From Deltaproteobacteria bacterium (lineage in GTDB: Bacteria; Desulfobacterota; Binatia; HRBIN30; JACQVA1): a stretch of 64,000 nt of DNA. The translations under genes and the position numbers were made by a program. The notes beneath the pieces were generated by a model that was given only the letters and a program-made list of their open reading frames with translations, searched no databases and was not told the origin of the DNA. The stretch lies in NCBI GenBank assembly GCA_016178705.1, contig JACOST010000001.1:1-64000 (forward strand), written 5' to 3'. Positions within the stretch are counted from its first letter, which is position 1; the number at the start of each line of letters is the position of its first letter. Below, in pieces: positions 1-26,167 of the stretch.

Positions 1-3000
1 CGAAGCTCGCGTTCTGGACCAAGTTGCCCGGGCAGAACGACGGCGTGGCCGTCGGCGGCACGGCGGTGTTGGTCGCCATCGCGGTGCTGGTGCGCGTCGT
101 GGTCGGCGGCACCGCTGTGTTCGTCGCCGTTGCCGTCGCCGTCGCCGGGACCGCGGTGTTGGTCGCTGTCGCGGTGCTGGTGCGCGTCGTGGTCGGCGGC
201 ACCGCCGTGTTCGTCGCCGTTGCCGTCACGGTGGGCGGCACGGCGGTGTTGGTCGCCGTCGCGGTGCTGGTGCGCGTCGTGGTTGGCGGCACCGCCGTGT
301 TCGTCGCCGTTGCCGTCGCCGTCGGTGGCACGGGCGTATTGGTCGGCGTCGGGGTAGGCGCTTGGCAGTGCAGTGAACAATAGTTCGGTTCGTTGCCGTG
401 GAACGCGTCGAGCAGGCGACTGCTGTAGCGAACACCGCCCGCGAGCGAGAGCAACACATCTCCGAAGAAGGCGTCGGTCTGATACGCGCACGGAGAATTG
501 GTCACGCTCAGCGTGGTTGAGCTGTTCGGTCCCAGCACCGTCACGCGGTAGTCGAGCAACTCCTGGTTGTCGATGTTGGCGTCGAACTCCTTGTACACCG
601 CCAAACCGATCGGATAGCTGCAGCTGGTCGATAGGTTGACGAAGGTTGCGCTGCTGGTGTTTCCGGCAATCGTGATAGTCGCGGTCAACATTCCCGACCC
701 CGGTGTGCTGGAGCAGCCGCCGGCCGGAGTGAACGCCGGAGATGGCATGCGCGTCGGCGTTCCCGCGGTGCACACTTCACCCGTTGGCGTCGCGGTTGCC
801 GTTGGGGTTGGCGGCACCGGCGTATTCGTGCGGGTCACGCTCGCCGTCGCGGCGCGCGTCACCGTCGCCGGCACCACCGTGTTGGTGTTGGTCGGCGTAG
901 CGCTCGGCGGGATTGCCGTGTTGGTCGCGGTCGCCGTGCGCGTTGGGGTGTTCGTCACCGTCGGGCTCGCCGTTGCACACGGTGGCGGCATGACGTGGCA
1001 CTGCGCGCCCGCGCCTTCGCCATCGCTGCCAACGTAGTAGACGGCGTCAATCAACTCCATGCTGGCGCTAGCCGACGGCGTGTTGAACGCCGTGTCGAGG
1101 ATCTGGCTGACGGTCTGTCCCGTCAGGCTCCCGAAATTGTAGAGAGCATTCCCGAGCTGTGGGTTGAGCGCCAGATTGAGTTCCGCCGACAGCAGATGAC
1201 GATGGTACTGATCCGACGTGTCGTTCAGGAACGCATCGATTTGCACGGTGGTCAGTGTCGAATAGTGCGTGGTGGCCTGGATGAGCGCAGCGAACTGCGT
1301 TGTGGTGAACTGGTTCTGCCAATTCTTCCAGTAACCAGGGCTGCGGATGAGCGAACACAGATCGGCGCTGCCGCACACGGGAGTGATCGTGCCGGTCGGT
1401 GTCGGTGTCGGTGTGTTGGTTGGGGTCGGCGTCAGCCCACACACGGTCGGCACCACCCGGCAGCTCTGCCCCGCACCCTCGCCGTTACTACCGAGATAGA
1501 GCACGGCGTCGTAGAGATCGGCGCTCGCACTGCCCGCCGGCGTGTTGAAGGCGGTGTTCAGAATCTGATTGACCGTCTCTCCGCTGAGTGTGCCGAACAT
1601 GTAGAGCCCAGCGCCGAGCTGCGGGTGCAAGGCGACATTGAGTTCCGCAGACAACAGGTGACGATGATACTGGTCCGTATTGTCGTTCAACAACGTTTCG
1701 GCCTGCGCGACGGTGAAACTGCTGTAGTCGGCAGTGGCCTGAATGATCGTCAGAAACTCCGCCGTCGTGTAGTGGTTCGACCAGTTCTTCCAATAGCCTG
1801 GGCTGAAGATGAAACCACAGAGCTCCCCGGTCGTACACGGGGTGGCGGTGGCGGTCGCCGTTCGCGTCGGCGTCTGTGTCGGGGTGGCAGTCGGCGTGTT
1901 CGTCGGTGTGAAGGTCGGCGTTCTCGTTGGCGTGTGGGTGGGTGTTTGCGTCGGTGTACTGGTCGCTGTGGCTGTCGAAGCATTCGTCGGCGTGGCTGTA
2001 GCGGTTCGCGTCGGCGTCGCGGTCGGCGTCTGCGTCGGGGTGTTCGTCGGGGTCACCGTAGCTGTTAGAGTCGCCGTGTTCGTCGGCGTCGCGGTCGGCG
2101 TGGTGGTCGGTGTAGACGTTGCGGTCGTAGTCGGCGTCACCGTCGGTGTTCGTGTCGGCGCGCTCGTTGGCGTAGCTGTCGGCGTCGCCGTCGCAGTGCT
2201 GGTTGGGGTGTGAGTCGGGGTCGTGGTCGGTGTCACCGTCGGTGTTCTTGTCGGCGTGCTCGTTGACGTACCGGTCGGCGTCGCCGTTGGTGTCCCAGTT
2301 GGGGTTGCCGTCCCCGTGCTCGTCGGCGTCGCCGTCGGGGTACTCGTTGGTGTCGCGGTCGGTGTCGCTGTCGCAGTTTGAGTCGGCGTGTTGGTCGCAG
2401 TGATCGTCGGGGTACTGGTTGGTGTCGCCGTTGCGGTTCGCGTCGGAGTGTTGGTTGGCGTCGCCGTCGGCGTTTGAGTTGGCGTGTCGGTCGGGGTTGC
2501 CGTCGAGGTGTGAGTCGGCGTTGACGTCGGGGTCGCGGTCGGCGTCGCCGTTGGCGTTGCGGTCGGCGTGTTCGTTGGGGTCGAAGTCGGCGTCCCAGTT
2601 GGCGTCGCGGTCGGCGTACTCGTCGGTGTGGCGGTCGGCGTATCGGTTGGGGTTGCCGTCGGGGTGTCAGTCGGTGTTACGGTCGGTGTCGACGTTGGCG
2701 TCCCGGTTGGGGTGGCCGTCGCCGTATTCGTCGGAGTCGCGGTCGGCGTCGAAGTCGGCGTACTCGTCGCCGTGGTGGTCGGCGTATCAGTCGGCGTCGC
2801 CGTTGCTGTGCTCGTCGGCGTCGACGTTGGCGTCCCAGTTGGGGTGGCCGTCGCCGTATTCGTCGGGCTCGCGGTCGGCGTCGAAGTCGGCGTGCTCGTC
2901 GGCGTCGCGGTTGGTGTGTCGGTCGGGGTTGCGGTCGGCGTGTTGGTTGGCGTCGCCGTGGGCGTGTGAGTCGGCGTCGCGGTTGGCGTACCGGTTGGTG

Positions 3001-5281
3001 TCGCCGTGGGAGTGTGAGTCGGTGTCGATGTTGGCGTACTCGTGGGTGTCGCGGTCGGCGTGCTCGTTGGCGTTGCCGTCGGCGTATCCGTCGGTGTCGC
3101 CGTCGGCGTGGCGGTTGGCGTTGCCGTTGGCGTTGCCGTCGGCGTATCCGTCGGTGTCGCCGTCGGCGTGGCGGTTGGCGTTGCCGTTGGCGTCGATGTT
3201 GGCGTGCTCGTCGGTGTGGCGGTCGGCGTTGCCGTCGGTGTACTCGTCGGGGTCGCCGTCGGCGTGCTCGTCGGCGTTGATGTCGGCGTGCTCGTCGGGC
3301 TCGAGGTTGGTGTGTCGGTCGGGGTTGCGGTCGGCGTGTCAGTCGGGGTTGCCGTTGGTGTGTGGGTTGGTGTCGCCGTCGGCGTATCCGTCGGTGTCGA
3401 TGTTGGCGTACTCGTGGGTGTCGCGGTCGGCGTGCTCGTTGGCGTTGCCGTCGGCGTATCCGTCGGTGTCGCGGTTGGCGTTGCCGTCGGCGTCGATGTT
3501 GGCGTGCTCGTCGGGGTCGCTGTTGCGGTACTCGTTGGCGTGGCCGTCGGCGTCGACGTTGGTGTACCAGTCGGCGTGGCCGTCGGTGTGTCGGTTGGCG
3601 TCGCGGTCGGCGTGCTCGTCGGCGTCGCGGTTGCGGTACTGGTTGGTGTCGCCGTTGTGGTTCGCGTCGGCGTGTTGGTTGGCGTCGCCGTCGGCGTTTG
3701 AGTTGGCGTGTCGGTCGGGGTTGCCGTCGAGGTGTGAGTCGGCGTTGACGTCGGGGTCGCGGTCGGTGTGTCGGTCGGAGTCTCCGTCGGCGTGCCGGTT
3801 GGGGTTGCCGTCGGCGTACTCGTCGGGGTCGCGGTCGGCGTTGCCGTTGGCGTTGCGGTCGGTGTGTCGGTCGGCGTTGCGGTCGGCGTGTTGGTTGGGG
3901 TCGAAGTCGGCGTCCCAGTTGGCGTCGCGGTCGGCGTACTCGTCGGGGTGGCGGTCGGCGTATCGGTTGGGGTTGCCGTCGGGGTGTCAGTCGGTGTTGC
4001 GGTCGGTGTCGATGTTGGCGTCCCAGTTGGGGTGGCCGTCGCCGTATTCGTCGGCGTCGCGGTCGGCGTCGAAGTCGGCGTACTCGTCGGGGTCGCCGTC
4101 GGCGTGTCGGTTGGCGTCGCGGTCGGCGTTGATGTTGGAGTGTTCGTCTGGGTCGCCGTCGGCGTATCAGTTGGCGTCGAAGTTGGGGTGTTCGTCGGAG
4201 TCGCCGTCGGCGTGTCAGTCGGTGTCGCCGTCGGCGTATCCGTTGGCGTCGATGTTGGCGTGCTCGTCGGCGTCGACGTTGGCGTACCGGTTGGTGTCGC
4301 CGTCGGCGTTGCGGTCGGTGTGGCCGTCGGCGTGCTCGTCGGCGTCCGTGTCGGAGTGCTGGTGGGCGTACTCGTTGGCGTACCAGTCGGCGTGGCCGTC
4401 GCGGTGCCAGTCGGAGTCGCTGTCGGCGTGCTCGTCGCGGTCGCGGTTGGTGTCGCCGTAGCCGTGCTCGTCGGCGTCGCCGTCGCGGTGCTAGTTGGAG
4501 TACTTGTGGGCGTAGCCGTCGGGGTAACCGTCGGCGTGAAAGTAGGCGTGTTCGCTTCAATCGGGTTGGTCGGGACTTCGACCGGCGTCGGGGTCGAGCT
4601 GGGCGTCGGGGTCGGCGGGCCATACACCTCAACCAGGTTCAACCGCAGGTCGCCGGCCTGATGGGGATCGACAACGATCTTTACGCTTTTGATGCTGCTG
4701 AGATTGATTCCGGGAAAGCTTGTGAACGGAAAAGCAATGACCATGGGCCCAGAGACCGTGATCGTCTGAGTGGCAGACTTGGTGGTACCGAAATTATCCA
4801 CAAGGGCTACCGTTACCGGGTAACCACTCGACCCCACTGACGACAGATCCGCAGAAAAGATACTGACGCGAATACCGGTCTGCGTTGCGAAGCTCGTATT
4901 GAGGCCGGTCGCGCTGTTACCTGCGTCGTAGAGCAACTCGAACCGACCGTCGGCGCGCACGCTCGACGAATAGTCGAGCAGCACCGAGCTGGTAGACACT
5001 CCGACGGTCACCGAGTCGACCGCGGATCCAATGCTGGTGGCTGTGACCGTGAGCTTTCGAGCCCCGCCGAGAACACCCGCGAGGCCGGTATCGGTCTTCG
5101 TGGTGCTGCCAACGGTCAACTGCGATACCCCAGGCGGCAACTTCGTGTTTACGGCGCTCGTGAAGTCGTCGATAGTAATCCCGCTCGCAGTAGTCGCGGC
5201 ACCCAAAACCAACGCCAACATCCACCAAGCGAAGGCACGTCCGGCTCTGATGGCCACTGCGGTGTGGTTGGGTCGCGTCAC
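1..5281 (-). CDS. Giant secreted Thr/Pro-linker multidomain protein (3' end outside window)
   Basis: The minus-strand frame stays open from GTG 5281 (alternative in-frame GTG 5290) to the window edge, over 1760 codons. I confirmed the same codon phase near 4501, 3001, 1792 and 1330. Layout: a signal peptide (hydrophobic [16 protein letters not shown]); a beta-rich domain at about residues 35-215, paralogous to the whole next gene upstream; a Thr/Pro/Ala/Val linker at about 221-1147; two related domains with SPGYWKNW (tryptophans 1164 and 1318), each followed by [13 protein letters not shown]; a Thr-Pro spacer; a Cys-containing domain at about 1499-1637; another spacer; and the beginning of a domain starting [11 protein letters not shown], which resembles the N-terminus of jelly-roll carbohydrate-binding or DUF642-like domains. 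Probably an exported surface or matrix protein. Function unknown. It starts 37 nt after the upstream paralogue's stop, so co-transcription is likely. Confidence 0.85.
2411..2541. repeat. 131-bp segmental duplication, copy 1 (copy 2 at 3635-3765)
   Basis: The block is nearly identical to 3635-3765, 1224 bp (408 codons) away, with two mismatches seen by eye. A following block around 2581-2730 reappears around 3901-4050 at offset 1320, so a 96-bp insertion or deletion separates the duplicated arms. This indicates growth of the linker by long segmental duplication, not only by hexamer slippage. Confidence 0.75.
3066..3180. repeat. Perfect 60-bp tandem duplication inside the linker
   Basis: Positions 3066-3120 are repeated exactly at 3126-3180 (period 60 bp, 20 codons). 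The sequence identity, including third codon positions, points to a recent event. Confidence 0.85.
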
Positions 5282-13690: not shown

Positions 13691-14968
13691 CTAGAGAGAC
13701 TCACGGATCGCTTGCAGTAGCGCGATGTTGTCCGAGTGCCCTGTGCGCCGCGCGGTGACGAAGCCACGCAGCGGGCGCCCGAGCAAATAGAGATCGCCCA
13801 TCACATCGAGGATTTTGTGGCGCGCAAACTCGTTGGGAAAGCGCAGCGTGGTGTTCACCACCTTCTCCTCGTCGATGAGGATGCAGTTGTCGAGTCGCCC
13901 GCCGCGCGCCAGCCCCATCGCGGCAAGCGCCTTCATGTCCTTGAGAAACGCAAACGTCCGTGCGGGGGCGATCTGCTCGCGGAATATCGCCGGATCGCCG
14001 GCCCGATAGGTGTGCTCCTGCGTACCGACTGGATGCGGATAGACCAGCGTGTACGACACGCCGAAGGTGTCCGCAGGATCGATCCAGATCGCCTCGCCGT
14101 CACCGTGGGGATCACCCACCGCGATGCGACGATCGATTTCAATCGGTTCGATGCTGGCGCCCTGCTCTTCGGTGCCGGCGCTCTCGATGAGCTGGCAGAA
14201 CTCACGCGCCGAACCGTCCATCGCCGGCACTTCGCCCTGAATCTTGATCAGGAGATTGGTGATCCCGTACGCGTGCAGCGAAGCGAGCAAGTGCTCGACC
14301 GTCTTCACGGTGATCTCGCCGCGATGCAACGTCGTCGCATAGCCGGTCGAGTCGACATAGTCGAGAAACGCCGGCACGGTTTCATCCGACGACACTGTGC
14401 CGAAGACAATGCCGCTGCCTGGAGGCATCGGCTGGAGGATCAGTCCGGTTTTGGTACCGGTGTGCAACCCCTGCCCGCTGGCTACTACGCCGCGACGCAG
14501 CGTGCGTTGGGCGGTACCACTACGCAGCAGTGCCCCCTGAAGAGTCGCGCCATTGACCGGCTGCAGGTCGGGGCTCGCGGTCGCCGCGTGCGCCGCTGCG
14601 CGATGGTCGAGCGCGCGGTTGACCACGCGCAGCAGTCCTTCCAGTGAGAACGGCTTCTCAATGAAGTCGAAGGCCCCAAGCTTGGTCGCCTTCACCGCCG
14701 TCTCGATGTTACCGTGCCCGGATATCATCACGACTTCGGGCGAGAACGGCTCCGCGCGCAGCCGTTCGAGGAGTTGAATGCCGTCCATCTCTGGCATCCA
14801 GATGTCGAGCAGCACCAGCTCGGGGTGTTCATGTTCGATCACCTCTAGGGCTTGGCGGCCATCTTCCGCTTCCAGCACGCGCAACCCTTCATCAGCCAGT
14901 ACCCCTCGCACCGACGCCCGGATCTCCGCTTCGTCGTCGACCACCAGCACCGTCGCCACCGTTTCCAT
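13691..14968 (-). CDS. lpxC: Response-regulator receiver domain fused to LpxC deacetylase
   Basis: 425 residues. Residues 5-122 are a CheY-like receiver with Asp11/Asp12, phosphoacceptor Asp55 (LVLLDIWMPEMDG), Ser83 and Lys105 (FIEKPF). SGHGNIETAVKATKLGAFDFIEKP is the signature of the NtrX subgroup. After a linker, residues 150-425 are UDP-3-O-acyl-GlcNAc deacetylase, the committed step of lipid A synthesis. Its active-site residues are present: Glu225-His226 (VEHLL), DGSA (251-254), His384 and Asp388 (zinc ligands, RHKILD) and catalytic His411 (TGHSDN). The AAA+ and Fis DNA-binding domains of NtrX are absent. The gene follows the NtrY-like kinase by 21 nt on the same strand, so the kinase probably controls LpxC through phosphorylation. 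No separate lpxC is in the window. Confidence 0.93.
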   Translation of the reverse strand: METVATVLVVDDEAEIRASVRGVLADEGLRVLEAEDGRQALEVIEHEHPELVLLDIWMPEMDGIQLLERLRAEPFSPEVVMISGHGNIETAVKATKLGAFDFIEKPFSLEGLLRVVNRALDHRAAAHAATASPDLQPVNGATLQGALLRSGTAQRTLRRGVVASGQGLHTGTKTGLILQPMPPGSGIVFGTVSSDETVPAFLDYVDSTGYATTLHRGEITVKTVEHLLASLHAYGITNLLIKIQGEVPAMDGSAREFCQLIESAGTEEQGASIEPIEIDRRIAVGDPHGDGEAIWIDPADTFGVSYTLVYPHPVGTQEHTYRAGDPAIFREQIAPARTFAFLKDMKALAAMGLARGGRLDNCILIDEEKVVNTTLRFPNEFARHKILDVMGDLYLLGRPLRGFVTARRTGHSDNIALLQAIRESL

Positions 14969-14989
14969 GCGTCGTTCTCCTGTCTCGCG

Positions 14990-17239
14990 CTAGATACGCG
15001 CGCCGACCCGCGCCAGCGGTATACGTCGCCGGGTTGGGAACTCGATCACAAAGCGACTACCACGCGGCGCGTTGTCACGCACGCGGATGTACGCCTGATG
15101 GTCGGCGACGATCGCCGACACAATCGCTAAGCCCAACCCGGTTCCTTCCTTCTTGGTCGAAAAGTACGGCTCGAAGATGCGGCCCTTGGTCAGGTCGCTC
15201 ATCCCGGTGCCAGTGTCGGCGACCTCCAAGCGCACCAAGCCGACGCGTGGTTCGTACTGCGTACTGACCGCGATCCGGCCGCGCTCGCCGGTGACGGCTG
15301 CGCAGGCGGCGACCGCGTTGTCGAGCAGGTTCACGATAGCGCGCTTGATCGCCGCACGATCGAGCTCGAGTGTCGGCAATTCCGCCGTGGGCATCCACTC
15401 GAAGTCGATTTCGCGATGGCCTTCGCGAAACAACACCAGCGCTTCCTCGATGATCTCGTTGAGATCCTGCGAGCTGAGATCAGCGGCCGGCAAGCGTGCG
15501 AAGGTGGAGAACTCGTTCACCATCTTCTTCAGCTCCTCGACTTGCCGAATGATGGTGCGCGTACACTCGTCGAAGATCCCACCATGCTGCTCACCCAGCT
15601 GGGTCGCGAACCGCTTGCGTAGGCGCTGTGCCGACAATTGAATCGGCGTCAGCGGGTTCTTGATCTCGTGGGCGATCCGACGAGCCACTTCGCGCCAAGC
15701 CTCCATGCGTTCGACTCGCAACAGATGACTCACATCCTCGAAGAACAGCATGACGCCCAGCGACGACCCAGCGTCGTCGCGCAGCGCCGCCGCCGTTACC
15801 AAGGCGGTAACGACACGATCGCCCCCGCCGAAACGCAACTGGCGTTCGACTTCGGCTTCGCCGCCCTCGACCACTTGACTGATCTGCTCCCCGATCTTGC
15901 GCAGATCGGAGCGCTCGAACACCGCTTGCCATGAGCGCCCTTCAACCTCGCGCGCACGCAAGCCGAGCATCGACTCCACCGCGCGGTTCACGGTGGTCAC
16001 GGTGCCGGTTTGACCGATGGAGATGACGCCGGCCGCGATGTTGGCGAGGATGTTCTCGATGTAGCGCCGCCGCGCATCGAGCTCAGAGTGAATCGTCTTC
16101 AACTCGCCGGTCATGCGATTGAACGAATCGACGAGCGTCGCGACCTCCTCGTCGCCACCGGCGGCGATGCGATAGTCCCAGTTCCCTTGCGCCACTTCGC
16201 GCGTGCCCTCGGCGAGCCGCTGGATTGGCACCGTGATGCCCTTGGCGAGATAGAATCCGAACCAGGTCGCTGAGAAGATGACGACGAGCGTGATCAAGAG
16301 GAGCGTTAGGGTATAGCCGTTCTTGATCGGCTGCTTCATGGTCTTGAGCTGTCGATACTCCTGGAACGAGCGCGAGATATCCTCGGCGGTGCGACTAATC
16401 TGTCGCGGCACCACTTCGGCAATGACGATCGCACCAACCACTTGGCCGTCGGCATCCAGCACCGGCACTCCGCCGCGGACGAGATCACCCTTGCCAACGC
16501 GCTGTGTGCGAGCGATCGGCTCGCCCCTGAACAGCTGATCCATGATATCGAGCGGCGGCACGGGAAGTGTTGCGGTGCCGAGTTGCTCGCTTTGCGTTAC
16601 CGCCGCCATCGCAGTGCGCGCGCCGTCGAACACCTCGATGCCGGCGAAATTCAGCTCGTGCAGCTTCTCGTTGAGAAACTCGTGCAGCTGCGCGCGCTTC
16701 GTCTGACTCCATAGTCCTCGTTGCTGGGTCTGCTCGGCCAACGCGCGCGCGGCGCGCAGCGACCGATTGGCAGCGGCCTGATAGTACGACTGCGCGACAT
16801 CGAGCGAGCCCGCCAATGAGCTTTCCACGCGCACGCCGAACCAATTCTCGATCGCGGAGGTGAGGAAGCCCTGTGCGACGAGGAACAAAAGCAGCGTTGG
16901 GAACAGCGTCAGACTAACAAAGGCGAGCACCAAGCGGGTGCGCAACCGCGAACCGAGGATGCGCTGGCGGCGCTCGAACAGCAGCTTCACCAAATTGCGC
17001 GTGACCAGGAAGATCAGCAGGATCAGTAGGATCAAATTCAGGTTGATGAGCAGAAAGAAGACGATATTTCCCGATAGCGACGAGCTGTTGCTCAACTCCG
17101 GCAATCGAGTTTCGAACAGCGCTAGCACCAGCACCACCAGCGCGGTGATAGCGATGACGATGCCCTCACGACGGCGCCGGCGCCGCTCGTCGGGCGGTAG
17201 GTCCGGTCGTTCACGCCAGAGGCTACGCCAGCGAGACAT
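14990..17239 (-). CDS. ntrY: NtrY-like transmembrane sensor histidine kinase
   Basis: About 749 residues from ATG 17239 (the open frame extends to a TTG at 17263). Layout: Arg-rich N-terminus, two or three membrane helices (IVIAITALVVLVLALF; FFLLINLNLILLILLIFLV; LVLAFVSLTLFPTLLLFLV), a periplasmic region, another helix (LTLLLITLVVIFSATWFGF), HAMP, PAS (around VNRAVESMLGLRAREVEGRS), HisKA (RRIAHEIKNPLTP with the phosphoacceptor His) and HATPase_c (N box DNAVAAC; DTGTGMS; GTGLGLAIV). This is the NtrY architecture. It is followed 21 nt downstream by the receiver-LpxC fusion, which takes the place of NtrX. Confidence 0.92.
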   Translation of the reverse strand: MSRWRSLWRERPDLPPDERRRRRREGIVIAITALVVLVLALFETRLPELSNSSSLSGNIVFFLLINLNLILLILLIFLVTRNLVKLLFERRQRILGSRLRTRLVLAFVSLTLFPTLLLFLVAQGFLTSAIENWFGVRVESSLAGSLDVAQSYYQAAANRSLRAARALAEQTQQRGLWSQTKRAQLHEFLNEKLHELNFAGIEVFDGARTAMAAVTQSEQLGTATLPVPPLDIMDQLFRGEPIARTQRVGKGDLVRGGVPVLDADGQVVGAIVIAEVVPRQISRTAEDISRSFQEYRQLKTMKQPIKNGYTLTLLLITLVVIFSATWFGFYLAKGITVPIQRLAEGTREVAQGNWDYRIAAGGDEEVATLVDSFNRMTGELKTIHSELDARRRYIENILANIAAGVISIGQTGTVTTVNRAVESMLGLRAREVEGRSWQAVFERSDLRKIGEQISQVVEGGEAEVERQLRFGGGDRVVTALVTAAALRDDAGSSLGVMLFFEDVSHLLRVERMEAWREVARRIAHEIKNPLTPIQLSAQRLRKRFATQLGEQHGGIFDECTRTIIRQVEELKKMVNEFSTFARLPAADLSSQDLNEIIEEALVLFREGHREIDFEWMPTAELPTLELDRAAIKRAIVNLLDNAVAACAAVTGERGRIAVSTQYEPRVGLVRLEVADTGTGMSDLTKGRIFEPYFSTKKEGTGLGLAIVSAIVADHQAYIRVRDNAPRGSRFVIEFPTRRRIPLARVGARI

Positions 17240-17533: not shown

Positions 17534-18568
17534 TCACCTGGGAAACAACCTTCCCTGCGCCGCGGCGCCCCCCACCGCTCTGCCGAAGTGCTCATGCGCG
17601 CGTGGTGTCGCCATGCGCCCCTTTGGTGTACGGCTCAGATAACCAACCTGGATCAAGAACGGTTCGTAGACGTCTTCGATCGTGTCGCGCTCCTCGCCCA
17701 CCGCGGCGGCTAACGTATCGAGTCCGACGGGCCCACCGCTGAATTTGTCGATGATGGTGAGCATAATCGCACGGTCCATTTTGTCGAAGCCTTCGCGGTC
17801 GACCTCTAACATTGCCAGCGCTTCGTCAGCGACCCGGCGTGAGATGACACCGTCGGCACGCACCTGCGCGTAATCCCGCACGCGGCGCAGCAGCCGGTTG
17901 GCAATGCGCGGCGTGCCGCGAGCGCGGCGCGCTATCTCGAGCGCACCGTCGGCTTCGATTCGAACCTGCAGGATGGCGGCCGATCGCTTCACGATCAGAA
18001 TCAATTCTTCCGGGGCATAAAAGTCCAGGCGGAAGGTGACACCGAAACGATCGCGCAGGGGCGAGGTCAGCAGACCGGCGCGCGTGGTCGCGCCGATCAA
18101 GGTGAAGCGCTTCAGATCGAGCTTGATCGAGCGTGCCGCCGGACCCTGCCCGATCATCAAATCGATCTGAAAGTCCTCCAGCGCTGGATAGAGAATCTCC
18201 TCGACGATCCGGCTCAACCGATGGATCTCGTCGATGAAGAGCACGTCGCCGGCGTCGAGATTGGTCAGGATCGCGGCGAGGTCACCCGGTCGCTCGATGA
18301 CGGGGCCGGACGTCGAACGGATGCTGACGTTCATTTCGCGCGCGATGATGTGCGCGAGCGAGGTCTTTCCCAAACCCGGCGGCCCACAGAGCAGCATGTG
18401 ATCGAGCGAATCGCCGCGCCCCTTGGCGGCGTCTATTGCGACGCACAGATTGGCCTTCACCTGCTCCTGCCCGACATAGTCGGCCAGCGTTGGCGGCCGC
18501 AAGCTCGTGTCGAGGGCAACGTCTTCCTCGCTAGTCGCCGGGGTGATGAGACGATCTGGGTCCGACAT
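17534..18568 (-). CDS. ruvB: Holliday junction branch-migration helicase RuvB
   Basis: 344 residues, normal for the family. [18 protein letters not shown] near the N-terminus, Walker [14 protein letters not shown], Walker B DEIHRL, sensor 1 [10 protein letters not shown] and the C-terminal winged helix ending [19 protein letters not shown] are all present. The hexameric AAA+ motor drives branch migration together with RuvA. Starts 3 nt after ruvA. Confidence 0.97.
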
Positions 18569-18571
18569 CAG

Positions 18572-19165
18572 TTAGCCGCTCAATCGGCGCAGCGCGTCGC
18601 GAATCACGCCGCTGAGTTCCTCCACGCCGTCGGCGCGCGCCGCCTTCACCGCATGCTCCGCCTCCGGCCGACGGTAGCCCAAATTCACCAGCGCCGAAAC
18701 CGCCTCGGTGTTGACGCCGTCACTCCGACTGGCGCCCTGCCCATCGGCGTGCGCGGCCTGCAGGATCTTGACGCGATCGCGTAGCTCGACCACCAGGCGC
18801 TCGGCGGTCTTCTTGCCGATGCCGGGGATCGACACCAAGCGAACCAAGTCACTCGATTCGATCGCCGCTTGCAGCTCGCGAACCGGCATGCCCGACAAGA
18901 TATTGAGCGCCAAGCGCGGACCGATGCCGGACACACCGATAAGTAACCCGAAAAGCTGCCGTTCGTCCGCCTCGGCGAAGCCGAACAGCTCGAGCGCGTT
19001 CTCGCGCAGGTTGGTGTGAATCAAGAGCCGCACGCGTTCACCGGTATTGGGCAATTGATAGAGGCAGTTGAGTGAGACGAAGACTTGGTAGCCGACGCCC
19101 CCAACATCGACAACCAGGTGCTCGGGTGATTTGTGCGCGAGCGTGCCGCTGAGTTGGGCGATCAT
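18572..19165 (-). CDS. ruvA: Holliday junction DNA-binding protein RuvA
   Basis: 197 residues from ATG 19165, which overlaps the ruvC stop (ATGA). The longer open frame upstream is read through ruvC and is not used. The N-terminal OB fold begins MIAQLSGTLAHKSPEHLVVD; the helix-hairpin-helix region is LLIGVSGIGPRLALNILSG and LVSIPGIGKKTAERLVVELRD; the C-terminal domain contacts RuvB. RuvA tetramers hold the junction in the square-planar form. Confidence 0.96.
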   Translation of the reverse strand: MIAQLSGTLAHKSPEHLVVDVGGVGYQVFVSLNCLYQLPNTGERVRLLIHTNLRENALELFGFAEADERQLFGLLIGVSGIGPRLALNILSGMPVRELQAAIESSDLVRLVSIPGIGKKTAERLVVELRDRVKILQAAHADGQGASRSDGVNTEAVSALVNLGYRRPEAEHAVKAARADGVEELSGVIRDALRRLSG

Positions 19166-19734
19166 CGTTTCGCCCCCGGTTTCACTCCGGCGAGACTCAT
19201 CCACCGACCGCCCGAGCGGCGGCGGCGCGCGCGCACCAACTCGACCAAGTTCCCGTGTCCGATGCGTGCCGCCATCCGGCGCGCGTGGATGTGACACACA
19301 GCTGCGGCGAGCGCGTCGGCTTCATCAGTCACCACGTCACCTTCGATTGCGAGCAGGCGGCGCATCATCAGTTGTACCTGCTCCTTTGTGGCGCGACCGG
19401 TGCCGACCACAGCCAGCTTGATCTCGGCGGGACTGTACTCCGCGATCGTCAACCCCTCTCGCGCCGCGGCGACCAGCACCGCACCACGCGCCTCACCTAG
19501 CCGGAACGCGCTCTGCACGTTGGCCGCGACGAAACTCTTTTCCAAACTGAGTGCGGTCGGCGAGTAGTGCGCAAGGACTTCTTCGAGCCGCGCCACGATG
19601 GCGGCCAAGCGCGCCGGCAGAGCACCCCGCACGCGCACGACACCACTGGCGACGCGGATCACTCGCGTGCCGCGTTCCTCCACCACACCCCAGCCCGTCG
19701 TCACCGTGCCGGGATCAATCCCGAGCACTCGCAT
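19162..19734 (-). CDS. ruvC: Crossover junction endodeoxyribonuclease RuvC
   Basis: 190 residues from ATG 19734. MRVLGIDPGTVTTGWGVVE carries the first catalytic Asp of the RNase H-like fold; Glu in SLEKSFVAANVQSAFRLGEARG and the later DEADALAAAVCH motif complete the acidic site. RuvC resolves Holliday junctions in the RuvABC complex. It lies 49 nt downstream of yebC and overlaps ruvA. Confidence 0.96.
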   Translation of the reverse strand: MRVLGIDPGTVTTGWGVVEERGTRVIRVASGVVRVRGALPARLAAIVARLEEVLAHYSPTALSLEKSFVAANVQSAFRLGEARGAVLVAAAREGLTIAEYSPAEIKLAVVGTGRATKEQVQLMMRRLLAIEGDVVTDEADALAAAVCHIHARRMAARIGHGNLVELVRARRRRSGGRWMSLAGVKPGAKR

Positions 19735-19783
19735 ATCGTGTGAGATTACAACTCCCGCCGCGCCACTCCGCATCCACCCGCCG

Positions 19784-20536
19784 TCAGGCCGCGCTGAGTC
19801 GCTCCAATTCCTCCGGCGCAATCTCGAAATTCGCCGCAACTGACTGGATGTCGTCGTGGTCTTCCAGCTCTTCGATGAGCGCCATCGTGTGCTCCGCCGC
19901 TTTGCCGGTCACCGCCGTGCTGTTCTCCGGCTGCATGGTGATCTCGGCGGTAGCGGTTTCGATCTTGGCGTCGTCGAGGGCTTCCTTCACGGCATGGAAC
20001 GACTGCGGATCAGTAACGATCTCAAACTGATCCCCGGTGTCGCTCATGTCTTCCGCGCCAGCCGCAAGGACCAGTTCAAGGAGCGCGTCCTCGTTGGCTT
20101 TGTCCTTCTCGACAACGAGTACACCCTTCTTATGGAACATCCACGCCACGCAACCCGTGGCGCCGAAGTTGCCGCCGTGCTTCTCGAATACCCGCCGGAT
20201 CTCGGCAACGGTGCGATTGCGGTTGTCCGTTAGCGCTTGCGCCATCACCGCTACGCCGCCCGGGCCGTAGCCTTCGTAAGTGACCTCTTCGTAGTGGACG
20301 CCTTCCAACTCGCCGGTACCCTTCTTGATCGCGCGCTCGATATTGTCGTTCGGCATGCTCTGCGAGCGCGCCGTCAGCACAGCCGTCCGGAGGCGCGGGT
20401 TGGCATTGATGTCACCGCCACCCATACGTGCGGCCACGGAGATTTCCTTGATCAGCTTGGTGAACAGCTTACCCCGTTTGGCGTCCTTCGCCGCCTTCTT
20501 GTGCTTGATGGAACTCCACTTGGAATGGCCGGACAT
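19784..20536 (-). CDS. yebC: YebC/PmpR family protein
   Basis: 250 residues beginning [22 protein letters not shown], diagnostic of the family, with [17 protein letters not shown] and the acidic C-terminal domains. Members are described as transcriptional regulators and, more recently, as factors that relieve ribosome stalling. GGAGGCTTC precedes the ATG. First gene of the yebC-ruvC-ruvA-ruvB-DUF2905 operon, a widely conserved order. Confidence 0.96.
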
Positions 20537-22981: not shown

Positions 22982-25900
22982 TCATGGTGAGCCAGCGGAC
23001 AGTACCCGCAGGATCATCTGTCCCTGTAAGCTCAAATTGTCGCCGCTGTCACGCAGCTTGACGGTGACAACCGTATCGCCGACCGGGAAGCTGAAGGGCC
23101 GCTCGACGGCTCCGCAAAACTGCAGAGTTGAGTTGCTCGCCACGAATCGGAAATCGCCGGTGCGGATGACCGTACACGCCTCGTCCGTGCTGCGGCCGAC
23201 TGGCTGGCCGCCACCGTTGAGAAAGCGGCAGCCGAGGTCGTTCATTGCGTCCGAGATGGGTTGCGTGAAAGCAAAGTTGGGCGGCTCGGTGGAGGGCACG
23301 CCACCGAGATCGGGCGACATGTTGTCACATACGGCCGTACTGCCGTTTCCCAGTGGTCGCGAGACGATGACCTGCAGGTCCGGTCGCACTGTCGGGTCCG
23401 ACGCGTCGGTGGCAAAGGCACTCTTCCCGAGTGCGTGGTGGCTACCGCCCGGGCGCCCCTCGACCACCATCGTGAAATTGAACCCGAGCGGCCGCACGTA
23501 GATCGGTACACCCCCTGCTGTCGTGGCGCTCGGCGTCGGCACGGTGCCGTCCGAATTCGCGGCGCCGAAGAACGTGATGAACGGTCCTGGATAGATCGTT
23601 GGCGTCGGCGTACGCGTAATGGTCGGCGTGCGCGTGATCGTCGGCGTCTCGGTGATCGTCGGGGTCTGCGTCGGCGTGCGCGTGTTCGTCGGCGTCCGCG
23701 TTGGCGTCAATGTGAACGTGACCGTCGGAGTGAGCGACGGCGTGAGGGTACGCGTAAACGTCGGCGTCAACGTCGCGGTTGGCGTCAGAGTTATACTCGG
23801 CGTGTTTGACGGCGTGCGGGTCGGGGTCACCGTGGAGGTCAGCGTCGGCGTCAGAGTCGATGTCGGCGTCCGCGTCGCGGAAGCTGTGAAGGTTATCGTT
23901 CCGGTGGCACTCGTGGTGCGGGTGGGCGTTTCTGTCGGAGTCGGCGTCGAGGTGGGTGACGGCGCGTTGGTGCGGGTGAATGTCGGGACGCGCGTCACAG
24001 TCCCCGTGGCTGTCAGCGTGGCCGTGCGGGTCAACGTGCGCGTGAATGTCGGCGTAGTCGTGGGCGTCGCGCTGCTTGTGGGCGACTCGGTCGGCGTGAA
24101 GGTTGGCGGCCGGCTCCCCGTAATCGTGACCGACGCCGTACCGGTCGTAGTGGCGGTGCGCGTGCGAGTGAGCGTGGCGCTCGGCGAGGGGCTGCGACTG
24201 TTTGTTGAGGTTCCGGTTGGAATCGGCGTCATGGTACCGGTCGTGGTCGGTACCGCTGTCAGACTTTGTGTCGATGAGGCACTGCGGCTCGCGGTCGTGG
24301 TCGGGGTCACGGTTGGCGTGGCAGTGATTGATCCAGTTGGCGTGAAGCTGCGGGTGATCGGCGGCGTCCCAGTTACACTAGGTGATGCGGTGATCGTACG
24401 AGTGTGGGTAGCTGTGGGGGTTGGCGTCATGCTCAGCGTCGGCGTCGCGGTGGGCGTGTAGGTTAGAATGCGGGAGCCGGTCGCCGTCACGGTAACGGTA
24501 CCGGTACGCGACGGCGTACGTGTCCGACTCGGCGTCGCGCTAAGGGTGGCGGTGCTGGTCGCGGTATCGGACGGGCTGGGCGAGGGCGGCGGCGTGGGAG
24601 CAATCGTCGGGGTGTCCGACGGCGTTCGCGTCGGCTGAGGCGAGCCGGTGCTGGTTGTCGTGGTCGTCGGTGTGATCGAGGTCGTCGGTGTCCGTGTCGC
24701 CGTCGGCGTACGCGTTCGCGTGAATGTTGGGCGCCGTGTGCGCGTTGGCCGGCGGGTGCGGGACATCGTCGCTGTTGCGGAGTTGGTTGCCGTAAGCGAG
24801 CTGGTGGCGCTTGGCGAAGGGGTGGCTGAGGCCGTCGCCGAAGTGCTGCGCGTCGCACTGTTGGTTGCGGTACCGCGCGGTGTGGCGGTCGATGTCGTAG
24901 TCGGTGATGGACTAGTGGTTCCGGTCACGGTTGGGGTCGCGGACGGCGTATCAGTGGGAATGGTGGATGATCCGGTCATCGTTGGCGACGGCGTCGCGGA
25001 GTTGGTCGCTGTCGAGGTAATCGTCGCACTCGCCGTGGGTGTAGGCGAAGGTACAGCACTGCCGGTCAACGTTGGAGATGGCGTCACGGTGGCCGTCCCG
25101 GTAGGCGACGGAGAGTGGGTCACCGTCACCGTAACGGTCCCTGTCAGCGTAACCGTCGGTCGCTGCGTCGGTGTCGCCGTCGACGTTGGTGTTCGAGTGG
25201 GCTTCGGTCGGGTCGGCGTCGCGGTCGGCGGTAGTGTGGCCCCGATGTGCACGATGATCTGCTCGACCGGGCCGACACTGCCACTCACGCTGCGCACGCG
25301 GGCTGTGATCACGGTGTCACCCTCCGCGAACTGCAACTCGGTGGCTATCGGCGCGCAGAACTGTGCCCGGGTACTGGCGCTTGTGAACGCCGGATTTCCG
25401 AACGCGTTGAGCGTGCACGCGGCCGCGGGATTTCCGACGACCTCGAAACGACACGCCAAGTCGTTGAGGGCATCGGCGACGAGTTGGCCGCCGCTGAAAT
25501 CCGGCGGGTCGATGGCGGGCACTCCGTTTTCGCACACTGTGCGGCTACCATCGCCAGCCGCGCGCGAGAGCAACAACTGCAGATCGGGCCGTGCCGCAGG
25601 ATCGTTGGGGCGTGCGTTGAACAGTTGAGTACCAACCGCAGCGCCATCGCTTCCAGGTGCCGCCTCGACCACCAAGCGGAAGCCAACGCCTGTGAACCGT
25701 TGATACACCGCTGTACCCTCCACCACCGTTGCCGGCGAAAGTATCGTCCCGTCGGCGGCGGCGATGCCGAAAAAGGTAAGCATCGGCCCCGGAGCCGGAG
25801 TGGGAACGACGGTCGGCGTGCCGGAGGGTGCCAGAAGAAGCAGCGCCGTGGTATCGGCGGCGTTGACGAAGCCATCCTGATTAACGTCGGCTCCCGCACA

Positions 25901-26167
25901 GCTCGCGACCAATCCGCCGCCGACATCGCCCACGGCTTCGCCATCGCCGTCGTCAATTTCGGACTCGAGTTGCCAAAGGTCGGTCGCGGTAACCACCCCG
26001 TCACAATTCACATCGCCTGGAGCGGAGGGGGGCCCTGCGGAGGCCCCCCCGACTATCACCATCGCCACAGCCACGACGTTTATCCACGCGCGCCGCCACA
26101 GCGGATATTCGGTTCGCCTCCACACAAAAAGACGAGTCACTATGCCCAGCACTTCCGCCGGGGTCAA
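22982..26167 (-). CDS. Secreted dockerin-like protein with Thr-Pro linker and two copies of one domain
   Basis: 1061 residues as drawn; the true start may be an internal GTG just before the Arg-rich signal peptide ([21 protein letters not shown]). Immediately after it are two Ca-binding dockerin-type repeats ([17 protein letters not shown] and [19 protein letters not shown]). A domain at about 130-310 ([42 protein letters not shown]) is repeated at the C-terminus ([42 protein letters not shown]). Between them lie about 540 residues of Thr/Pro/Ser-rich linker. Presumably exported and surface-bound. Function unknown, but the build parallels the giant protein at the left edge. Confidence 0.87.
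23602..25235. repeat. Degenerate Thr-Pro-encoding repeat tract
   Basis: About 1.6 kb of GTCGGCGT-like degenerate units encoding Thr/Pro/Ser/Ala on the minus strand. It is more diverged than the tract at 1840-4620, with more Ser, Arg and Ile codons, suggesting an older array. Plus-strand Val-rich ORFs here are antisense artefacts. Confidence 0.8.

Follow-up and report, generated by a model that had tools for sequence, protein, structure and literature searches.

A receiver domain fused to LpxC and its adjacent NtrY-type kinase in the Binatia: a probable two-component system with an enzyme of lipid A synthesis as its output

LpxC carries out the committed step of lipid A synthesis and is a pursued antibiotic target. 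To our knowledge, how Gram-negative bacteria beyond a few models balance lipid A against the other components of the envelope is an open question. Response regulators with enzymatic outputs, such as CheB, Rec-GGDEF proteins and others, are known, whereas NtrX, the response regulator of the NtrYX two-component system, is a DNA-binding protein of the σ54-activator family. Here, we describe a gene in a 64,000-nucleotide stretch of a deltaproteobacterial genome (contig JACOST010000001.1, positions 1 to 64,000; hereafter the window) that encodes an NtrX-type receiver (Rec) domain fused to LpxC and lies directly downstream of a gene for an NtrY-type membrane histidine kinase.

Control of LpxC after translation has precedents in Escherichia coli, through FtsH-LapB, and in Pseudomonas aeruginosa, through MurA, as summarized in a 2025 review of lipid A regulation (PMC12444477). 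In those organisms control is exerted by proteolysis or by a partner enzyme, whereas here a phosphorylatable domain is part of LpxC itself. The initial annotation of the window had set the fusion against FtsH proteolysis in E. coli; LpxC is indeed degraded there, but the contrast was drawn too narrowly, since the same review describes this control as largely confined to Enterobacteriaceae and, in alphaproteobacteria, a connection between NtrYX and the transcription of lpxC is already documented (PMC12444477, PMC7240162). NtrYX is reported to lower lpxC expression in Rhodobacter sphaeroides and Caulobacter crescentus (PMC12444477), and lpxC mRNA is up 8.8-fold in an R. sphaeroides ΔntrYX strain (PMC7240162). 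Another possible tie between lpxC and σ54 is the σ54 promoter predicted before lpxC in Leptospira (PMC12655853).

The locus shares with NtrYX its order of kinase domains, its receiver subfamily and its gene neighborhood, and in relatives ntrYX and lpxC are linked. It departs from NtrX in having an enzyme as output, with no AAA+ or helix-turn-helix (HTH) domain found, and resembles in this respect CheB and the Rec-GGDEF proteins, the output being LpxC. The attachment of Rec to metabolic enzymes has been described as a trend (PMC5847659); the archaeal Rec-enzyme fusions treated there are narrow in distribution, whereas Rec-LpxC spans a class, much of the Nitrospinota and parts of other phyla. 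LpxC is likewise fused in Chlorobium, as LpxC-FabZ (PMC516016), but its partner there is a biosynthetic enzyme rather than a receiver. Among the titles and abstract openings listed by searches of the open-access literature, no report of a Rec-LpxC fusion was found, and the main text of the 2025 review (PMC12444477) does not contain the words "receiver", "fused" or "fusion". The enzyme-output response regulator is thus a known kind, and LpxC as its output is apparently unreported.

The fusion gene and its kinase

The fusion gene occupies positions 13691..14968 of the minus strand as a single open reading frame of 425 residues with zero internal stops. Pfam assigns Response_reg to residues 7-116 (14621..14950; 112 bits) and LpxC (PF03331) to residues 154-421 (13706..14509; 277 bits against a cut-off of 27), and finds no AAA+ or DNA-binding family in the protein. 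The NCBI equivalog model for lpxC, TIGR00325, is passed with 236 bits against a cut-off of 187. Among response-regulator models that of NtrX (NF051870) scores highest, at 130 bits against a cut-off of 600 and with the match confined to the receiver; a σ54-type AAA+ domain and a Fis-type HTH were not found. The receiver carries D11, D12, S83, the phospho-acceptor D55 (codon 14804-14806) and K105 (codon 14654-14656), and the deacetylase carries E225, H226, H384, D388 and H411, which we take to be its zinc ligands and catalytic residues. The closest solved structures to the Rec part are 4d6x and 5m7n, both Brucella NtrX, and all 50 of the matches listed by Foldseek against the PDB for the other domain are LpxC. 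An AlphaFold model of both domains together has a predicted local distance difference test score (pLDDT) of 93.1 and a predicted template modeling score (pTM) of 0.85, and the latter hints at a defined domain arrangement. Residues 117-153 (14510..14620) form a presumably flexible linker of low pLDDT, below 50 at residues 135-149, whose length varies among relatives. The initial annotation had proposed an NtrX-type receiver fused to a full LpxC, with the AAA+ and DNA-binding parts of NtrX missing. The open reading frame, Pfam and TIGR00325 bear this out, and the residues it named (D55, K105 and the five of the deacetylase) all stand where it placed them.

The kinase gene (14990..17239, minus strand) encodes 749 residues from its ATG. 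Pfam, run on a 757-residue version starting at an upstream TTG, recognizes NtrY_N, HAMP, PAS, HisKA and HATPase_c, together with a Cache-like match below cut-off in the sensor region. The motifs HEIKNPL, NLLDNA, DTGTGM and GTGLGL correspond to the H, N, G1 and G2 boxes, four hydrophobic stretches are present, and the H-box histidine is residue 524 (codon 15668-15670). The intervening 21 nucleotides (14969..14989, minus strand) hold an AGGAG sequence resembling a ribosome-binding site before the fusion ATG. A complete NtrY-like kinase at this distance from the fusion had been called correctly.

The genome of origin (6.1 Mb, 98% complete) has a single LpxC, which is the fusion, and a single NtrY_N protein, which is the adjacent kinase. 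NtrX was not found in it: with 21 of 98 candidates scored, the best score against the NtrX model was 414 bits, compared with 467-530 bits in genomes that have NtrX. The candidates at 414, 400 and 392 bits were rejected, as they lie in the score range of paralogs and all three fall among paralogs in a tree. The σ54-activator family has 33 matches in this genome, 15 distinct paralogs of which entered the tree and likewise all grouped with the paralogs. The NtrX model exceeded 460 bits in 6 of 64 genomes, comprising four of five controls with a standalone lpxC and two holders of a fused gene, G208 and G285; none of the 64 passed 600 bits, so that the NF051870 cut-off is strict for the host phylum. 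Although the search was not exhaustive, the apparent absence of NtrX from this genome is well supported by these scores. Neither a second lpxC nor a full-length ntrX elsewhere, both of which the initial annotation had named as speaking against its proposal, thus came to light. LpxK is present in all 17 fused genomes tested; lipid A is therefore probably made, and a sole LpxC must work. With one LpxC and LpxK in its genome, the fusion is likely an active deacetylase.

Distribution, conservation and linkage to ntrY

The fusion recurs throughout the host class, the Binatia, in which 140 of 148 genomes match it at a threshold of 1e-30. The match covers nearly the full length of Rec-LpxC in 133 of these (in one, G485, with a TGA inside it) and is partial in seven, four of which begin no more than 65 bases from the end of a contig; in eight genomes the fusion has no match at this threshold. 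One class member, G510, carries a second, unfused LpxC-like open reading frame. Separately, G445, a genome listed as 99% complete, differs from its family in giving no match to LpxC at 1e-30.

The host phylum was sampled with 395 genomes, the window genome included. Rec and LpxC fall in one alignment in 54 of them, in one case only to residue 394, one more has a partial match, and a further 36 have the LpxC part in frames of 448-820 residues. Rec precedes LpxC in all 26 of these long-frame loci that were fetched, and in 16 an AAA+ domain lies between them (Rec-AAA-LpxC); five such proteins scanned with Pfam gave Response_reg, Sigma54_activat, AAA_lid_14 and LpxC. One Rec-AAA-LpxC gene, L116, has a single in-frame stop inside Rec, either a sequencing error or a real break. 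Two Rec-LpxC copies on a single contig of G393 (L124 and L125; 75% complete genome) represent a duplication or a misassembly. The divergent Rec-LpxC genes of G252 (L146) and G208 (L147), at 39-41% identity, stand beside an ordinary lpxC-ntrY locus elsewhere in the same genomes and pose the question of a second, specialized LpxC, and G047 has a standalone lpxC with ntrY downstream (L139) besides its Rec-LpxC (L138). Several genomes of family f47 that are 99-100% complete have no LpxC match, a possible loss of lipid A.

Beyond these groups, 64 of 77 Nitrospinota genomes give a match at 1e-40, which in 56 lies in a frame of 670-797 residues. Domain assignment at 12 of these loci gave 11 Rec-AAA-LpxC and one Rec-LpxC, and two named loci, L180 and L181 (the latter from Nitrospinaceae), are also Rec-AAA-LpxC. 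Most Nitrospinota therefore appear to carry Rec-AAA-LpxC, an assignment confirmed by domains for 13 and judged by frame length for the rest. In the phylum on the Acidobacteriota side to which L179 belongs, 16 of 376 genomes align over both Rec and LpxC. In another two, LpxC sits in a frame of 440-442 residues, and for a further 23 the match at 1e-60 is confined to LpxC, the frames being 298-448 residues long. Named examples among the matches listed are CP070817.1, JAOZUP010000027.1 and JAIQFQ010000008.1 for Rec-LpxC and JACRGP010000022.1 and JAJDBF010000038.1 for Rec-AAA-LpxC. Dedicated searches covered three phyla; a wider contig scan gave at least 80 loci.

Conservation was assessed over 126 distinct fetched fusions, 98 Rec-LpxC and 28 Rec-AAA-LpxC. 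Receiver residues D11, D12, D55, W57 and K105 are invariant in all 126, as are E225, H226, H384, K385, D388, D392 and H411 of LpxC; the position of S83 holds Ser, or Thr in 11 Rec-AAA-LpxC. The distance from Rec to LpxC ranges from 25 to 66 residues over the 98 Rec-LpxC. The tail that follows LpxC has a median length of 6 residues in 97 Rec-LpxC and 7 in 28 Rec-AAA-LpxC, compared with 33 in 105 standalone proteins. Eleven positions are at least 88% fixed in the fused clade and at most 15% elsewhere, including G175, H232 and K242, the last replacing an acidic residue; Y310 and P311 are likewise specific to this clade. These positions are candidates for contact with Rec.

Within the class, NtrY is encoded directly upstream of Rec-LpxC at 20 of 21 loci examined, the window included, and the remaining locus (L093) ends at a contig edge. 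The same holds for 9 of 15 judgeable Rec-AAA-LpxC loci of the host phylum (16 were fetched, L117 being cut) and, by coordinates, for Rec-AAA-LpxC in four Nitrospinota genomes (G606, G608, G609 and G611). A single NtrY_N match was obtained in 32 of 39 genomes: the five standalone controls all have it, as do 27 of the 34 genomes that carry a fusion. A search with the whole kinase of the window gave matches at 1e-50 in 36 of 39 fused genomes. Most fused genomes thus keep an NtrY, also where the genes are unlinked. Adjacency, invariant residues, the NtrX-like receiver and the retention of NtrY together support the earlier suggestion that the kinase and Rec-LpxC make up one two-component system.

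Origin of the fusion

Rec-AAA-LpxC retains a σ54-activator part, and its motifs were compared between 28 such proteins and 12 NtrX from lpxC-ntrYX clusters. The GAFTGA motif of the σ54-contact loop is present in 10 of the 12 NtrX (once as GSFTGA) and in none of the 28. Walker B is intact in all 12 NtrX, whereas every one of the 28 Rec-AAA-LpxC lacks its Glu and 9 retain its Asp; Walker A is kept in all 28. The stretch aligned with the Fis-type HTH, judged by eye, is kept in 19 and gone in nine (four proteins of family f61, L180, L181 and L326-L328), and Pfam scored no HTH in the five Rec-AAA-LpxC scanned. Invariance of the Rec and LpxC residues together with loss of the activator motifs indicates that selection holds Rec and LpxC but not the activator. 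In the long-linker Rec-LpxC proteins L126, L129 and L131 the start of the linker resembles, by eye, that between Rec and AAA+ of NtrX, as expected if the AAA+ domain was excised.

Standalone lpxC genes of the host phylum were examined at 20 fetched loci, a non-random set chosen by high LpxC score, two of them short downstream. At 10 of the 20, ntrY lies downstream on the same strand, and at the other 10 there is none; ntrX is also present at six, once on the opposite strand. Among the matches listed, lpxC is followed by ntrY at 9 of 75 named standalone loci: two from Rokubacteria, one from Thermoanaerobaculia and deltaproteobacterial records including Desulfonema magnum. This linkage suggests that lpxC and ntrYX were probably neighbors before the fusion. 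The window order is yebC-ruvC-ruvA-ruvB (17534..20536, minus strand; ruvB by Pfam, the other three presumed from their translations), then ntrY, then Rec-LpxC. The same run of four lies upstream of standalone lpxC at 4 of the 20 loci (L290, L293, L295 and L304), in L290 and L304 with an extra small gene between ruvB and lpxC, and by gene order it would mark the window locus as being of the ancestral type. A DUF4390 gene stands between lpxC and ntrY in the ancestral-type clusters of L290 and L304. An LPG_synthase_TM gene (PF03706; 11280..12389, plus strand) is separated from the fusion by one gene in the window and a gene of the same family follows ntrX in L290.

In a tree of 232 LpxC domains made by a quick method, fused and standalone proteins are separated by one change (Shimodaira-Hasegawa-like approximate likelihood ratio test, 100); the three architectures need seven changes, several long branches being flagged. 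A more careful tree of 70 chosen rows (33 Rec-LpxC, 16 Rec-AAA-LpxC and 21 standalone) recovers the fused/standalone split with support of 100/100 and in 200 of 200 bootstrap trees. The Nitrospinota Rec-LpxC L318 nests inside Rec-AAA-LpxC (100/100), a clear loss of AAA+ provided that fusion was the earlier event; for the deeper branches among the fused proteins the tree gives no supported order. A Rec tree (178 rows, few columns) separates fused receivers and NtrX from 34 NtrC-family paralogs (support 98), and a tree of Rec plus AAA+ (80 rows) places the 28 Rec-AAA-LpxC on one side of a branch (100), 18 NtrX rows, 16 of them distinct, on one side of another (81), and the paralogs apart (99). 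Two genomes, G873 and G530, hold a standalone lpxC next to ntrY plus a fused gene, which suggests gene transfer there.

We regard as likely, with somewhat less assurance than we attach to the regulatory model below, a stepwise origin in which a DNA-binding regulator became an allosteric domain. In an ancestor with lpxC beside ntrY-ntrX, lpxC would have joined the 3' end of ntrX once, in a single ancient fusion; the σ54-activator and DNA-binding parts would then have decayed, as in present-day Rec-AAA-LpxC, and been lost at least once independently, leaving Rec-LpxC. This order of events is the one we infer.

Regulation of LpxC and alternative readings

We consider it probable that this is a two-component system in which LpxC itself is the response regulator, that LpxC activity is governed directly by NtrY-dependent phosphorylation of Rec, and that the fusion arose once. 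The sensor region of the membrane kinase NtrY is predicted to be extracytoplasmic; the kinase would phosphorylate Asp55 of Rec, and the phosphorylation state of Rec would directly alter the amount of LpxC activity in the cell. Invariant receiver chemistry, an adjacent kinase and the lack of a transcription domain make direct control of LpxC by phospho-Rec the simplest reading, and the earlier proposal of a control that bypasses transcription is a sound one given that the window protein lacks AAA+ and HTH and that both are in decay among its Rec-AAA-LpxC relatives. The range of linker lengths and the partly low pLDDT argue for a receiver that docks on the deacetylase domain and is released from it while tethered by a flexible linker, the most likely mode, rather than for a rigid lever. 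The sign of the effect, like the phosphotransfer itself, we infer: there is a slight lean toward phosphorylated Rec making LpxC less active, since in alphaproteobacteria NtrYX reduces the expression of lpxC.

Several observations weigh against this model. Adjacency of other Rec-LpxC genes to ntrY, which the initial annotation had proposed as a check, holds in the class, but outside it NtrY adjoins only 1 of 23 fetched Rec-LpxC loci (L145), two of the 23 having fewer than 200 upstream bases; and 3 of 39 fused genomes (G393, G374 and G557) have no NtrY at 1e-50. In G038, one of the standalone controls, no NtrX-like score was reached either, so that lacking NtrX does not set fused genomes apart. 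By score, G208 and G285 have a true NtrX besides their fused gene, and unfused LpxC occurs alongside the fusion in G047, G208, G252, G510, G530 and G873; in these genomes the fusion is not alone as LpxC or as NtrX-type regulator. Fused receivers do not form one group in the Rec tree (three changes, few columns). The linker is poorly conserved and variable in length, which argues against rigid coupling, and the pTM of 0.85 counts as a hint only. Finally, the effect of NtrYX on lpxC in R. sphaeroides is indirect according to its authors (PMC7240162).

Other readings keep the fusion and change what Rec does. Receiver domains gate proteolysis in adaptors of the RssB or CpdR type. Phospho-Rec might likewise set the amount of LpxC rather than its catalytic rate by gating recognition by a protease or adaptor. 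A flexible linker would suit such a switch, LpxC of E. coli is controlled by proteolysis (PMC12444477), and the fused proteins lack the C-terminal tail of standalone LpxC. We nevertheless think this unlikely: no conserved terminal sequence was seen in a 28-row alignment, and the missing tail is a weak pointer to an FtsH degron, given that LpxC is described as largely no FtsH target outside Enterobacteriaceae (PMC12444477). It is less likely still that the fusion serves as a locator, with Rec docking on NtrY and bringing LpxC to the membrane with little catalytic effect. The kinase is a predicted membrane protein and Ght has been suggested to localize LpxC to the membrane in Neisseria meningitidis (PMC12444477), but such a role would not need invariant D11, D12, D55 and K105, and many fused genes are unlinked from ntrY.

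The signal could also run in reverse, with substrate occupancy of LpxC altering Rec and, via NtrY, other regulators, so that LpxC is the sensor. The breadth of the NtrYX regulon in alphaproteobacteria (PMC7240162, PMC12444477) and the abundance of σ54-activator family members in the genome would allow this, but no other NtrX-type partner was found there, and we hold it to be very improbable. An assembly or frameshift artefact joining two genes, about which the initial annotation had itself been cautious, or a vestigial Rec, as the stop in L116 might suggest, can practically be dismissed: the architecture recurs in independent assemblies across the class (133/148), the phylum (54/395) and the Acidobacteriota-side genomes (16/376), which rules out an artefact, and the acceptor residues are kept in 126 of 126 fusions.

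Two low-complexity features lie elsewhere in the window: an array with a 12-bp period and about 200 copies (2081-4485), and a 1061-residue open reading frame (22982-26167) with T/P-rich repeats and, by eye, a dockerin-like start.

Direct control of LpxC by phospho-Rec would mean that, across a whole lineage, the probable target of a membrane sensor is the enzyme and not its gene. The balance of lipid A seems to be encoded in one protein, with a sensor kinase acting on the enzyme, and a transcription factor appears to have given up its role on DNA and turned into a regulatory domain. The fusion turns the indirect link between NtrYX and lpxC in alphaproteobacteria into a direct one that can be tested, and the fused proteins offer biochemistry a ready-made set of phosphorylatable LpxC variants.

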